A stretch of DNA of 64,000 nucleotides from Streptomyces sp. HUAS ZL42 (GTDB lineage Bacteria > Actinomycetota > Actinomycetes > Streptomycetales > Streptomycetaceae): assembly GCF_040782645.1 (NCBI RefSeq), contig NZ_CP160403.1:3286001-3350000 (forward strand), in the 5' to 3' direction. Made by a program: the position numbers and the translations under genes. The stretch's first letter is position 1, and every line of letters starts with the position of its first letter. The notes below the pieces were generated by a model. It saw only the letters and a program-made list of their open reading frames with translations, ran no database searches and had not been told where the DNA came from. Positions 22,848 to 54,725 of this stretch are shown in pieces.

Positions 22848-24743
22848 ATGCCCACGACACCTTTGACCACCCAGGACCGGTCCGCCGTACGGACGTTGCT
22901 GCGCCTGTGGCCGTATGTACGGCCGATTCGGGCGCGGCTGTTCACCGCCGCGTTCGTGGCGGTCGTCGCCTCCTGTACGGGGCTGGTGATCCCGCTCGTC
23001 CTGAAGTGGATGGTGGACGGGCCGGTCGCCGACCGGGATCCCGCGGGCGTCTGGCTCGGGGCGCTGTACCTGCTGCTGCTCGGGCTCGCCGAGGCGGGTC
23101 TGTTCGGGGTGCGGCGGTGGCTGGTGGCACGGCCGCTGTCGCATGTCGAGGCGGAGATGCGGGCGGATCTGTACCGGCATCTGCAGCGGCTGCCGGTCGC
23201 GTTCCACGATCGGTGGGCGTCCGGGCAGTTGCTGTCCCGGGGGACGACGGATCTGATGCTGCTGCGTATGTTCCTCGCCTTTCCGCTGACGTTTCTGCTG
23301 GTCAACGGAGTGACGATTCTCGTCGGCGTGGTGATCATGCTGCTGCAGGACTTGACGCTGGGGCTGGTGATCCTGGGGCCCGCCGTGCCGGTCGTCGTCA
23401 CCTGCGTGATCTTCGAGAAGCGGTACGCCGATGTGGCGCGGCTCGCCCAGGACCAGGTGGGTGATCTGACGACGGTCGTCGAGGAGAGTGTGCTCGGGAT
23501 CCGGATCATCAAGGGGTTCGGGCGGCATCGGTCGCAGGCGCGGGCGTTCCGCGAACTGTCGCGGACACTGCGGGGGACGGAGCTGCGGAAGGCTCGGCTG
23601 CTGGCGACCATCTGGGGCGTCATCGTGACGTTGCCGGAGGTGGCCATCGGGGCGGCGTTGGTGCTGGGGGCGGTGCAGGTTGCCTCCGGCGGTCTCTCGG
23701 CGGGCACGTTGGTCGCCTTTCTGTCCACGGCGCTTGCCTTGCGGTGGCCGGTGGACTCGATCGGGTTTCTGCTGGCGATGAGTCAGGAGGCGGCGACTGC
23801 TACGGAGCGGTACTTCGAGGTGATGGATGCGGAGCCGGAGGAGCCGTCGGGTTCTGGTGAGCCGGGGTCGGTGCGGGCCGGGGGTGGGTCGCGCAGCCCG
23901 GCGCTGCGGGGTGCCGCTGCGCCCACCCTCCCCCACTCTCGACTTCGCTCGAGCGGGGGGACCCCCATCGCCCCAGCGGCACGACTGCCCGCAGCTAGAC
24001 AGGGACTGACGTTCCACGACGTCACGTTCCGGTACCCCGACGCGCCATCCGACGCCCCTCCTGTTCTCCAGCGTGTCGATCTGCGCATCCGGCCCGGGGA
24101 GTCCATGGCTCTCGTCGGGGCCACCGGGAGTGGGAAGACCACCCTCACCGCGCTGGTGCCGCGGCTGCACGAGGTGACCTCCGGGTGCATCACGCTCGAC
24201 GGGGAGGACATCTCCGCGATGCCGAGGGAGGCGCTGCGCGAACTCGTCGCCGTCGCCTTCGAGGAGCCCACCCTCTTCTCCGCGAGCGTCGGGGAGAACG
24301 TCCTCATGGGAGCCGGAGACGGTGCCGGTGACACGGAGCTGGAGCGGGCGCTCGGGGTCGCGCAGGCCGACTTCGTGCACGCGTTGCCGCAGGGGACGGG
24401 GACCCAGGTCGGCGAGCAGGGGCTCAGCCTCTCCGGCGGTCAGCGGCAGCGGCTCGCGCTGGCCCGGGCGGTCGTCGGCAGACCCCGGTTCCTCGTGCTG
24501 GACGACCCGCTGTCCGCCCTGGACGTCCACACCGAGGCCGCCGTGGAGGCCGCGCTGCGGCAGGTGCTCGCGGACACCACCGCCCTCATCGTGGCCCACC
24601 GCCCGTCGACCGTCCTGCTCGCCGACCGTGTCGCGCTGCTGTCCGGCGGCCGGATCGCCGCCGTCGGCACCCACCAGCAACTCCTGCGGACGAACGCCGA
24701 GTACGCCCACCTGATGTCCGGGGAAGAGGGGGACCCTCGATGA
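22848..24743 (+). CDS. ABC exporter half-transporter with an expanded repeat-derived linker
   Basis: A 631-residue exporter half: six membrane helices (about residues 25-310) and an ATPase domain (about 385-620). Walker A is GATGSGKTT and the signature is intact (LSGGQRQR). Walker B is FLVLDDPLS, with Asp in place of the catalytic Glu, as in the degenerate site of heterodimeric exporters. Between the halves, residues 339-382 derive from a copy of a dispersed hairpin repeat also found at 37.99-38.59 kb. The start sits just after TAGGCT, a TANNNT-like -10, with no Shine-Dalgarno, so the message may be leaderless. It overlaps the next gene by four bases (ATGA) and should dimerise with it. Confidence 0.9.
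   Translation: MPTTPLTTQDRSAVRTLLRLWPYVRPIRARLFTAAFVAVVASCTGLVIPLVLKWMVDGPVADRDPAGVWLGALYLLLLGLAEAGLFGVRRWLVARPLSHVEAEMRADLYRHLQRLPVAFHDRWASGQLLSRGTTDLMLLRMFLAFPLTFLLVNGVTILVGVVIMLLQDLTLGLVILGPAVPVVVTCVIFEKRYADVARLAQDQVGDLTTVVEESVLGIRIIKGFGRHRSQARAFRELSRTLRGTELRKARLLATIWGVIVTLPEVAIGAALVLGAVQVASGGLSAGTLVAFLSTALALRWPVDSIGFLLAMSQEAATATERYFEVMDAEPEEPSGSGEPGSVRAGGGSRSPALRGAAAPTLPHSRLRSSGGTPIAPAARLPAARQGLTFHDVTFRYPDAPSDAPPVLQRVDLRIRPGESMALVGATGSGKTTLTALVPRLHEVTSGCITLDGEDISAMPREALRELVAVAFEEPTLFSASVGENVLMGAGDGAGDTELERALGVAQADFVHALPQGTGTQVGEQGLSLSGGQRQRLALARAVVGRPRFLVLDDPLSALDVHTEAAVEAALRQVLADTTALIVAHRPSTVLLADRVALLSGGRIAAVGTHQQLLRTNAEYAHLMSGEEGDPR
23863..23992 (+). repeat. Dispersed hairpin repeat copy inside an exporter gene
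   Basis: About 130 bases that, in reverse complement, align with each unit of the tandem repeat near 38.04-38.17 kb. Shared landmarks in order are GCGGGCAGTCGTGCCGC, GGGGCGATG, GGGTCC followed by CCCCGCTCGAGCGAAG, GGCACC, and CAGCGCCGGG. The hairpin core on the plus strand is CTCGACTTCGCTCGAG near 23939-23953. It lies wholly within the coding sequence at 22848-24743 and keeps the frame open. Confidence 0.8.
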
Positions 24744-26602
24744 CCGCGCCCACCACCTCCGTTCCCGCCGCCGACGACAACGAGCAGGAACTCCCGCGCG
24801 CGAAGGGCGCCCACGACCCCTTCGACCGCGATGTCCTGCCCACTCCCCCGGGCGCCACGGCCGCGCTCCTGCGCTCGCTCCTGGCCCCCATGAAGGCGCG
24901 CGTCGCCTTCACCACGCTCCTGCTGCTGTTCCAGCAGGCGGCCGTCCAGGCGGGCCCGCTGCTGGTGGCGTACGCCATCGACGACGCCGTACCGGCCTTC
25001 CGCCGGCACGACAACGGCCCGCTGATCGCGGTGGGCGTCGGCTATCTGCTGTGCGCGGTCGTCTCCGGTGCCCTGCAGTACGCCTTCATCGGGGCCTCCG
25101 CCCGCGTCAACCAGGACGTGCTGCTCGACCTGCGCGGCCGTATCTTCCGCCATGCGCAGGCCCTGAGCATCGACTTCCACGAGCGGTACACCTCGGGGCG
25201 GCTCATCTCCCGGTCCACCACGGACGTCGAGTCGCTGCGGGAACTGCTCAGCGAAGGCCTGCAGGAACTGGTCATGGTCATCCTGTCCTTCGCCTACATC
25301 TCGGCGATGCTGCTCTGGCTGGACCTGGGGCTGGGGGCCGTCGCGGTCGTGTCGTTCGTGCCGCTGTATCTGCTGGTGCGGGTGTATCAGCGGAGGGCCA
25401 AGCGCGTGTACCGGCTGCGGTCGACGGCCATCGCCGCGGTGATCGTGAAGTTCGTCGAGACGATGAACGGCATCCGTCCGGTGCGCGCGTTCCGTCGCGA
25501 GGCCGCCAACGACGCCGATTTCGCCGTACTCAACAAGCGTCACGAGCGGACCAACGGCGACGCGCTGCTCGAGATGGCCCGCTATGTCGTCGGCTCACGG
25601 CTGGTCGCCAACGCGTCCGTCGCGGTGATCGTGCTCTGGGGCGCCCACCGGGTGGCGGGCGGCTCGCTGGCCCTGGGTGTGCTGGCGGCCGCGGTGCTGT
25701 ACCTGCGGCGGCTGTACGACCCGATCGACCGGCTCGGCATGTTCCTCAACTCGTACCAGTCGGCGGCCGCCTCCCTGGAGAAGATCGCGGGCCTGCTGGC
25801 GCAGACGCCGTCCGTGCCCGAGACGTCGGCACCGAGGGAGCTCCCCCCGCTCGAGAGCGAACACCCCGGCCGCGAGGTCGTGTTCGACGGTGTGCGGTTC
25901 GCCTACCGCACCGGCGGTGAGGTGCTGCCCCGCTTCGACCTCACCCTGCCGGCCGGGCAGACCGTCGCGGTCGTCGGGTCGACGGGCGCCGGGAAGTCCA
26001 CGCTGGCCAAGCTGCTCGCCCGCTTCTACGACCCCTCGGACGGCCGGGTCCTCCTCGACGGGGTAGATTTGCGCGAGCTATCCGTGCCCGAACTGCGGCG
26101 CGGGGTGGTCATGGTGACGCAGGAGGCGTTCCTGTTCTCGGGCACGGTCGCCGAGAACATCGCCATCGGGCGGCCGGACGCGAGCCGAGAGGAGATCGAA
26201 CGGGCGGCGAAGGCGATCGGCGCGCACGAGTTCATCAGCGCGCTGCCCGACGGCTACGACACGGACGTACGCAAGCGCGGCGGCCGCATCTCCGCAGGTC
26301 AGCGTCAACTGGTGGCCTTCGCACGGGCGTTGCTGGCCGACCCCGCGGTGCTGATCCTCGATGAGGCGACCAGCTCGCTGGACATCCCCGGGGAGCGGGC
26401 CGTGCAGCGGGCCATGTCGACGGTTCTGCACGGCCGTACGGCCGTCGTGATCGCCCACCGGCTGTCGACCGTGGAGATCGCCGACCGGGTTCTCGTCATG
26501 GAACACGGGCGCATCGTCGAGGACGGAAGTCCGGCCGAACTCGTGGCTGGAACCGGTCGGTTCGCAAATCTGCACCGGGCTTGGCAGGACAGTCTGGCGT
26601 AA
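24740..26602 (+). CDS. ABC exporter half-transporter, catalytic partner
   Basis: A 620-residue partner of the preceding exporter half. Six helices lie between about residues 45 and 340, then an ATPase domain. Walker A is GSTGAGKST, Walker B has the catalytic Glu (VLILDEATSSLD), and the H-loop is VVIAHRLST. The signature is ISAGQRQ rather than LSGGQ. Combined with the preceding subunit, one composite ATP site pairs this intact Walker A/B with LSGGQ, and the other pairs the Asp-substituted Walker B with ISAGQ. This is the asymmetry known for BmrCD/TM287-288-type exporters. The start is coupled to the previous stop. The substrate is unknown; a drug or lipid is typical. Confidence 0.93.
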   Translation: MTAPTTSVPAADDNEQELPRAKGAHDPFDRDVLPTPPGATAALLRSLLAPMKARVAFTTLLLLFQQAAVQAGPLLVAYAIDDAVPAFRRHDNGPLIAVGVGYLLCAVVSGALQYAFIGASARVNQDVLLDLRGRIFRHAQALSIDFHERYTSGRLISRSTTDVESLRELLSEGLQELVMVILSFAYISAMLLWLDLGLGAVAVVSFVPLYLLVRVYQRRAKRVYRLRSTAIAAVIVKFVETMNGIRPVRAFRREAANDADFAVLNKRHERTNGDALLEMARYVVGSRLVANASVAVIVLWGAHRVAGGSLALGVLAAAVLYLRRLYDPIDRLGMFLNSYQSAAASLEKIAGLLAQTPSVPETSAPRELPPLESEHPGREVVFDGVRFAYRTGGEVLPRFDLTLPAGQTVAVVGSTGAGKSTLAKLLARFYDPSDGRVLLDGVDLRELSVPELRRGVVMVTQEAFLFSGTVAENIAIGRPDASREEIERAAKAIGAHEFISALPDGYDTDVRKRGGRISAGQRQLVAFARALLADPAVLILDEATSSLDIPGERAVQRAMSTVLHGRTAVVIAHRLSTVEIADRVLVMEHGRIVEDGSPAELVAGTGRFANLHRAWQDSLA

Positions 26603-30135: not shown

Positions 30136-30560
30136 GTTCAGGGTCCCAGCCCTGAAGGTCCTGAATCCGGAAGCTCCTGAGTCCTGAAGGGTCCTGAGTC
30201 CTGAAGGGTCCTGAGTCCTGAAGGGTCCTGAGTGCTGAAGGGTCCTGAGTGCTGAAGGGTCCTGAGTCCTGAATGCTGGGTGTTCGCGCAAGAAGACCGC
30301 AAATGGTCCGTATATCGAACATGACCAACCGGGCAACGGACCATTTCCGGCCAAGTTCTTGACGCGCTCCTGACAGTACGCGCTCTCCAGTGCCACGCTT
30401 CCCACGGCCACTTCACAGCAACCCCACAGCTACGTCCGCTGTGTCGTCACACGGCCGCCCGCACCTGGTTCTCCGTACCGCCCCTGTTCTGCCCGGACGG
30501 CCCACCCGCCGCCGGTCTCCCCTGGCCGCGCGATCCGCGGCCACGCAGAAGGAGTCAGTG
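30136..30560 (+). promoter_or_regulatory. Intergenic region before the M4 protease, with a minisatellite
   Basis: About 425 bases with no supported gene. The first 140 bases are a tandem repeat (separate entry). The remainder is AT-richer near 30290-30370 (GTCCGTATATCGAACATGACC), and TTCTTGACGC at 30354 resembles a -35. This is a plausible promoter region for the downstream metalloprotease, but no -10 is convincing. Confidence 0.4.
30170..30275 (+). repeat. 17-bp tandem repeat (minisatellite)
   Basis: Units of GGGTCCTGAGTCCTGAA start at 30189, 30206, 30223, 30240 and 30257, exactly 17 bases apart; two carry GTGCTGAA instead of GTCCTGAA. Degenerate copies extend to about 30150. Each unit contains two half-repeats of TCCTGA. 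The period is not a multiple of three and no start codon precedes it, so it is non-coding. It lies just after the last exporter gene and before the metalloprotease. Confidence 0.85.
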
Positions 30561-37842: not shown

Positions 37843-38799
37843 ATTCCACCTCGACGCGTTCGCTGGAGGACGCACGACGATGTGCGTGGTCGTCTCCTAC
37901 GACGGTACCGGTGTTCACGCGTCCACCGCGGGGGCTTCTCGCCCCCGGCCCCCCGCTTCGGCCTGAAGTCCGCTCGCGCACGCCGCTCACCCACCGCGTC
38001 GATCCGGGGGCGCGCGGCGCTCGGCCACGCCGTCCATCCCGCGGGCAGTCGTGCCGCCTGGGGCGATGAGGGTCCCCCGCTCGAGCGAAGCCGAGAACGA
38101 GGGAGAGCGGACGCGGACGGCACCCGTCAGCGCCGGGTTGCGCGCCTCGCCCCCGCGCCGACCGCAGCCGCGGGCACCCGACCATCGGCCTCCGCCTGTC
38201 GCAGGCACTCGCGGCGGACGGCACCCCGTCAGCGCCGGCCTGCACGACCCACCCCCACGCCGACCGCAGCCCCGGGCACCCGACGCTCAGCCACCGCGTC
38301 GATCCGGGGGCGCGCGGCGCTCGGCCACCCCGTCCATCCCGCGGGCAGTCGTGCCGCCTGGGGCGATGGAGGTCCCCCCGCTCGGGCGAAGCCGAGAACG
38401 GGGGGAGAGCGGACGCGGACGGCACCCGTCAGCGCCGGGTTGCGCGCCCCACCCCCGCGCCGACCGCAGCCGCGGGCACCCGACCATCGGCCTCCGCCTG
38501 TCGCGGGCACTCGCGGCGGACGGCACCCCGTCAGCGCCCGCCTGCACGACCCACCCCCACGCCGACCGCAGCCCCGGGCACCTGCGCGCCGCCCGCCGCA
38601 GGCACGCGCACACACTGTCCAGAATTCAACGCAACCTTCACGCATCCCCCATGGCCGACATGGCCGATTCCACCCCCGTAGGCCCCCTTGTGTGCCTTCA
38701 CACCGCACGAAATGCTGCCCGGGGGCGTACCGGCCCGCGCCGGTTCCACCGGGCGCGACACGGCTGCCGTACGCCGAGTTGAGGAGGGGAACTCACACC
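37843..38799. repeat. Repeat-rich intergenic gap between glgP and the protease
   Basis: A 957-base gap without a supported gene. Its middle is a tandem duplication of a unit of about 300 bases (37992-38291 and 38292-38592); the landmark CACCGCGTCGATCCGGGGGC recurs exactly 300 bases apart. Each unit contains a half-repeat of about 120 bases (GGCACCC.GTCAGCGCC) and the hairpin core CCCCGCTC(G)AGCGAAGCCGAGAA (38072-38095 and 38374-38397). Long open frames occur on both strands but lack ribosome sites and codon constraint. The remaining 200 bases before the protease should hold its promoter. Confidence 0.85.
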
Positions 38800-54501: not shown

Positions 54502-54725
54502 GACCTGTCGGATCAGGTCGCAGAAAAGCGGTGGCGACCGACAAGCCCAGGTGAGCGGGGCGGTGGGGGTGCCCCCGCGCGAGGTTGTTCGAGCGTGGGG
54601 GAGCGTCCAGATGCAAGGCGGAGGAGGGCGTCGACGCGATGGGGGTCCCCCGCTCGAGCGAAGCCGAGAGTGGGCGGAGGGCGTGCCAGGCCCCGCGTCT
54701 GCGGCATGATCCGCCGGACAGGCCC
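54502..54725 (+). mobile_element. MITE-like element 1
   Basis: About 224 bases bounded by imperfect inverted ends: GGACCTGTCGGATC at the left (a four-base deletion relative to the second copy) and GATCCGCCGGACAGG at the right. Its interior aligns with the reverse complement of the element at 61757: GGTCGCAGAAAAGC, then GCGTCCAG(A/C)TGCAAGGCGG and AGGAGGGCGTCGACGCG, then CCCCGCGTCTGCGGCATGATC. It encodes no protein. Relative to copy 2 it contains an extra hairpin (54640-54676). It abuts the marR TAG stop. Confidence 0.8.
54640..54676 (+). repeat. Dispersed hairpin core nested in MITE 1
   Basis: GATGGGGGTCCCCCGCTCGA followed by GCGAAGCCGAGAGTGGGCGG. This is the same core as in the repeats at 38.07, 38.37 and 23.94 kb. 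At the matching place copy 2 of the element has unrelated sequence, so the core was gained by this copy. Confidence 0.7.

Follow-up and report, generated by a model that had tools for sequence, protein, structure and literature searches.

REP elements are small imperfect hairpins, extended on one side by a short unpaired tail, that occur in many dispersed copies. Palindromic repeats of another kind, the RPE of intracellular Rickettsia, form several families of 105–146 or about 150 bp and, according to the reports describing them, lie between genes as well as in frame within unrelated conserved proteins (PMC10969869, PMC2996958, PMC2229807). Repeats like RPE are also described in Wolbachia and Methanocaldococcus jannaschii, and one report associates protein-coding palindromes with Rickettsia, with Wolbachia and with a single archaeon (PMC2996958). 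Short non-autonomous MITEs (ERIC, Correia/NEMIS) have likewise been described as fused in frame to genes of enterobacteria and Neisseria (PMC2229807, PMC10969869).

Here, we analysed a 64,000-nt stretch of the Streptomyces sp. HUAS ZL42 genome (the window), which belongs to a single contig of 9.87 Mb. It contains a repeat that resembles RPE in being dispersed, palindromic and present both in intergenic DNA and in frame within unrelated conserved proteins, a likeness that refers to the published descriptions of RPE and not to RPE sequence. The Streptomyces unit differs from RPE in its size (42 nt, with a net contribution of 36 nt), in being nested within a larger composite and in its host, a free-living actinomycete of high GC content. 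Judged from the sequence, the outcome is the same as for RPE: repeat DNA becomes a protein segment without breaking genes. Among the papers listed by our search of the open-access full-text literature (subscription papers were outside its scope), there was no earlier report of the repeat or its peptides.

The host gene (22848–24743, + strand) encodes a 631-aa ABC exporter half-transporter, as identified from its ORF and its Pfam domains ABC_membrane (residues 32–302) and ABC_tran (residues 407–555). The interdomain linker, delimited by orthologue alignment, comprises 58 aa (residues 328–385; 23829–24002, + strand), and the block at 23863–23992 supplies its residues 339–382. Directly adjoining is a second ABC half-transporter of 620 aa (24740–26602, + strand; ORF and Pfam), which is likely the exporter's partner given its adjacency. 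In motif readings that we take as indicative, the exporter carries LVLDDP after Walker B compared with LILDEA in the second half-transporter, which in turn has ISAGQ compared with LSGGQ in the exporter, and the pair at 22848–26602 looks like a heterodimeric exporter. Outside the linker, dN/dS ranged from 0.12 to 0.20 in seven pairwise comparisons, values that indicate purifying selection on the flanking domains. Structure prediction of the linker from an alignment of 26 close orthologues gave a mean pLDDT of 46.3 and a pTM of 0.30, and because of this low confidence we make no structural claim on the linker.

The initial annotation had read the linker block as a copy of the repeat that forms a tandem array near 38 kb, and alignment in reverse complement bears this out (85% identity over 127 columns and 83% over 126). 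The array (37984–38582) consists of two copies of a 302-bp unit, each holding one copy of the repeat family, hereafter F1, on the minus strand (about 38041–38164 and 38341–38466). The block had been placed correctly, but the alignable repeat is slightly longer. The best other F1 copy matches at 91% over query bases 2–130 of the 130-bp block (E 1.3e-44) and, when extended, aligns to 23857–23994 at 90% over 140 columns. From the alignment of copies we assign these coordinates (+ strand) to the F1 composite within the linker, while alignments of some copies begin at 23851 or end at 23997. A separate tandem array in the window (30140–30273) has a 17-bp unit, AGGGTCCTGAGTCCTGA, in about 8 copies.

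A whole-genome search with the F1 block returned at least 47 matches, itself included, a lower bound because 40 of 235 first-look candidates were scored. F1 is built from modules joined in a composite, and the aligned copies show swapped modules. Its 16-nt core, CTTCGCTCGAGCGGGG, occurs in 36 exact copies in the window genome and at 83 places when up to two mismatches are permitted, compared with 7 for the reversed control. The fold of the 130-nt block is mildly unusual relative to shuffles (z −1.55 as RNA, −1.28 as DNA), and an Rfam search of 251 bases around it produced a single match of 15.9 bits, compared with a gathering score of 53. The linker block is thus a copy of a dispersed composite repeat, and the reading frame across it is open through to ABC_tran, as the initial annotation had held. 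Very probably, a copy of the dispersed hairpin repeat inserted into the exporter gene and has become part of its reading frame; it is presumably translated in vivo and would act as a neutral spacer.

The core piece of F1 is a 42-nt hairpin unit (23928–23969, + strand; CTCCCCC...CCCATC, consensus CTCCCCCACTCTCGGCTTCGCTCGAGCGGGGGGACCCCCATC), which we located by an anchored scan. Sequence stretches covering 79 of the 83 core places were analysed. Both consensus anchors were present at 53 of the 79 core matches, delimiting units of 42 nt (36 cases), 41 nt (11) or 43 nt (6); this constancy is partly by construction because the end anchors were taken from the consensus, and empty sites in relatives provide the independent test of unit length. 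The base following the unit is G in 47 of the 53, its left flank is commonly ACC yet varied, and many flanks are unrelated to each other. The unit is predicted to fold into an imperfect hairpin whose unpaired tail is 8 nt long (−9.1 and −10.4 kcal/mol for the two strands; z −1.55 and −2.24 against shuffles), and a short inverted stem lies near its ends. Over all folding tests, stability exceeds that of shuffles only moderately (z −1.28 to −2.24). The exporter copy, the 47-bp module and the unit consensus are free of stops in all six frames, so the unit can enter a gene without truncating its product. Among 17 composite copies each frame was open in 7 to 15, and not all copies were open throughout. 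The core of a further unit copy, found by core scan at 54648–54663 (− strand), has a different composite context; this copy and those at L263 and L266 share the right flank GCGTCGACGCCCTC or a version with one base different, which suggests further repeat families hosting the unit.

The unit also appears in frame inside several unrelated conserved proteins of the window genome, as judged from coding signatures and family matches. Identity to the 47-bp module reached 70% in 67 of the 79 core matches, and for 16 of these 67 (at 15 loci) the frame bears a GC3 coding signature to either side, while 51 lie outside such frames, in line with the non-coding copies that the initial annotation expected from a genome-wide search. 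The test requires open sequence on both sides and leaves copies at gene ends uncounted. Across the 15 coding-like loci, seven forward copies are read as LPHSRLRSSGGTP or a variant, four reverse copies as MGVPPLERSREWG or a variant, and four are read in other frames. A known family was recognised on the ORF at 11 of the 15: the exporter, P450, LacI, GNAT, LigD polymerase, PMT_2, a pyridine-nucleotide oxidoreductase, PNKP and three HATPase proteins. Such a match is evidence for a real ORF and not for an insert, which was tested in P450, LacI and LigD. The ORFs at L109, L118, L124 and L274 gave no family match (L124 without an NCBIfam search). The coding status of L124 and L274 is doubtful, as is that of L291 and L294, which have diverged cores and fall outside the 53 anchored units.

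Comparison with relatives revealed empty sites of uniform size. In the P450 gene, the 42 nt of the window genome correspond to exactly 6 nt in all six aligned relatives (6 of 14 fetched relatives aligned, the others being more distant or partial), and the nearest is 96.6% identical outside the gap with the hexamer CCGGAC. The LacI gene has 6 nt in 12 of 14 relatives, and in the remaining two (L316 and L321) the same hinge site is filled with a 45-nt unit with changed loop bases; match lengths of further LacI relatives were near full, which suggests more filled sites. For LigD, 6 nt were found in 11 of 11 relatives, one of which (L340) shows a net difference of 24 over a wider stretch owing to a second indel. 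Solved homologues of P450 and of the LigD polymerase have 12 residues fewer, and the LacI hinge shows a gap of 12 against PurR; in the solved-structure search with GNAT, the alignment stopped short of the insert. Within the exporter composite itself, the 42-nt unit of the window corresponds to CGTGCC in orthologues L149 and L162. At least four genes (exporter, P450, LacI and LigD) thus appear to have an empty site in relatives at the DNA level, and the net difference of 36 nt equals 12 codons.

The same 42-versus-6 difference occurs in the non-coding composite, where the frame is not under selection. In the window genome, a junction that lacks the unit, GCCCACCCGTGCCGCCC, occurs in 21 exact copies, and four of the five that were inspected are composites without the unit (L112, L125, L129, L138), while at L121 a unit lies just upstream of the junction. 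When up to two mismatches were permitted, the junction matched 64 places compared with 42 for the reversed control, so only the 21 exact copies are informative. In reverse orientation, the exporter orthologues L165 and L166 have 43 and 7 nt between the same flanks, again a difference of 36 nt. The replaced hexamers vary (CGCACG or CGCACC at 8 of 12 LacI sites, a mixture among the eleven LigD sites, and CGTGAC, CGCGTC, GACATC and CGTGCC among the others seen). A fixed target hexamer had been considered and was dropped when a recount showed that hexamers differ between sites. Either the unit may have replaced 6 nt, or 36 nt may have been inserted and the 6 nt next to them altered afterwards.

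That the difference is 36 nt in each of three unrelated genes, and in the non-coding composite too, speaks for a defined unit. Taken further, it is possible, albeit doubtful, that Streptomyces has in this hairpin a defined mobile element that moves as a unit, enters DNA by replacing 6 nt with a net gain of always 36 nt and continually supplies proteins throughout the genus with 12-residue insertions. If the replacement reading holds, insertions into genes would be in frame by construction, and because the hexamer that is replaced varies, recognition by the unit would have to rest on some other feature. The unit shares with REP elements its small imperfect hairpin, one-sided 8-nt tail and many dispersed copies, and with MITEs, in the parts of their descriptions available here, that it is a short repeat found in frame in genes. 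At the 4 of 10 Y1_Tnp matches examined for a RAYT gene flanked by the repeat, the core was absent within the 3.4-kb locus (best 20 of 30). Three of these Y1 loci (L176, L178 and L179), each no more than about 0.25 Mb from a chromosome end, have ORF lists that we take by eye to be IS200/IS605-like, two of them presumably with a TnpB-like ORF on the other strand. IS200/IS605 elements have hairpin ends and a fixed short target; the left flank of the unit is often ACC but varied, and the replaced hexamer differs between sites. It is also much shorter than MITEs, with no parent insertion sequence identified, and it stands against 6 nt in relatives, with no target-site duplication established at the P450, LacI and LigD sites.

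A different route to the same pattern, which we regard as a serious though still somewhat improbable contender, is that the unit is not mobile but has been duplicated through template switching or gene conversion among dispersed hairpins, with the 36 nt then reflecting homology boundaries together with selection for frame. The failure to find a mobilising enzyme that accompanies the unit in the loci examined, the swapped modules of the composites, the variable hexamer and the opposite orientation of F1 in near-sister linkers (L156/L153 and L165/L162) all speak for such copying. Against it, units sit in unrelated flanks, and the 36-nt difference recurs in three genes unrelated to one another as well as in the non-coding composite, which is free of selection for frame.

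The proposed entry of a dispersed repeat into the exporter gene can be examined in its orthologues. We collected 169 orthologue loci, a non-random sample of the more similar ones (the best 80 of 546 from one collection, plus 29 and 60 chosen by rank among 392 genomes of the genus), and obtained 170 rows with the window, or 157 distinct rows after removing 12 duplicates and 1 incomplete sequence. All of the best 80 of 546 orthologues, which come from named genomes, belong to Streptomyces. Linker length varied from 17 to 176 aa (median 34), with 58 aa in the window. The nearest orthologue by tree path (L184, joined to the window row with a support of 94, a branch that is not starred) has a linker of 23 aa, 35 aa shorter than that of the window exporter, in agreement with the initial expectation that orthologues without the insert would have a shorter linker between conserved flanks.

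With references taken from window-genome copies outside the exporter gene, F1 was detected in 28 of 157 linkers (window included; E ≤1e-6), 19 in forward and 9 in reverse orientation; a looser reference including flanks gave 31. An unrelated dispersed family, F2, was present in 24 of 157 linkers at the same threshold, again with references from outside the gene, and 105 matched neither family. None of 785 control segments from the same exporter genes matched F1 or F2. Linkers scored as 'none' in the F1 test had a median of 23 aa. The hairpin core was not found in all 28 F1 linkers: 4 reached a score of at least 23 of 30 in forward and 7 in reverse orientation. The window linker scored 29, compared with a maximum of 22 in 3140 mononucleotide shuffles. 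F1 was dispersed in each of the 19 carrier genomes searched (25–70 matches each; the genome of L064 was outside this set), and F2 in each of 21 genomes (43 matches in the window genome, 58–89 elsewhere). Thus, a linker conserved throughout the genus with no dispersed copies, named at the outset as the counter-outcome, was not observed; F1 is dispersed and the linkers vary.

F2 is a second dispersed hairpin family with the core GGGGCGCGGGGAACTGCGCGACCAGCCCCCAC. In the linkers of L057, L058, L065, L073, L163 and L172, it is read as peptides of the RGAGNCATSP kind and variants. A regular-expression label for F2 proved too loose, and with BLAST, L174 and L230 were excluded and L059, L214 and L040 included. 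In the linkers of L229, L078 and L051, GT-rich dipeptide runs are expanded, a third route to length change.

On a quick IQ-TREE gene tree built without the linker (SH-aLRT support only), linker type changed at least 29 times among four states and 25 times for any-versus-none, and starred branches alone force at least 19 changes for none-versus-any; these counts do not distinguish gains from losses. The near sisters L156 and L153 have F1 sequence facing opposite ways, as do L165 and L162. Loss accounts for some of the short linkers: remnants are visible by eye in L229 and L226, and within the element L166 lacks 36 nt relative to L165. For each filled site, we favour gain over loss. Within the order, exact cores were found in 110 of 391 genomes, all in the genus itself (110 of 368, compared with 0 of 23 outside it), and beyond the genus the 130-bp block gave a single weak match in each of two genomes (6e-5 and 6e-4).

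The idea of an absorbed repeat as linker is therefore supported, but the initial annotation was too narrow: the process involves many lineages, both orientations and two unrelated families, its core piece is the 42-nt hairpin nested in the composite, and P450, LacI and LigD carry the unit too. Mechanistically, the basic unit would be the imperfect hairpin with its short unpaired tail, for which relatives have 6 nt, and copies would survive if the residues they add come to lie in a loop or linker that tolerates them. The linker of the exporter may be especially tolerant, having been filled, partly deleted and refilled by F1 and F2 in many lineages; it probably recurs as a site because length change is tolerated there.

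Recurrence of two families in one linker could also mean that the insert is functional, recruited by selection for a longer exporter linker or for a regulatory mRNA hairpin. This appears improbable, since 105 of 157 orthologues match neither family, 'none' rows are short, the sequence and orientation of the insert are unconserved, and tolerance of the linker accounts for the recurrence. As the exporter linker is a recurrent location, it might instead be the source from which intergenic copies were derived by spread out of coding genes, which we consider very unlikely given that 51 of 67 core copies lie outside a coding-like spanning frame, that most linkers examined match neither family and that the unit is present in unrelated genes at positions that are empty sites in relatives. 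That the linker is ordinary low-complexity GC-rich coding sequence resembling intergenic repeats by compositional coincidence is hardly credible: linkers do have a high content of Gly, Ala and Pro and differ in length from one orthologue to another, but nearly the full block matches another locus at an E-value of 1.3e-44, F1 occurs in both orientations, control segments do not match, and shuffled linkers stay well below the core score of the window.

With a copy of a dispersed repeat that very probably entered the exporter gene and is read through, protein-coding palindromes are found here in a free-living bacterium with a large genome. Through the constant 36-nt difference, mobility becomes directly testable, and because hundreds of species of the genus have been sequenced, gain, erosion and loss can be traced at single sites. 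For annotation, the peptides TLPHSRLRSSGGTPIA and MGVPPLERSREWGRV can serve as flags for repeat-derived protein segments. A single linker, occupied in many lineages by repeats from two unrelated families, amounts to a natural replicate experiment on repeats becoming protein.
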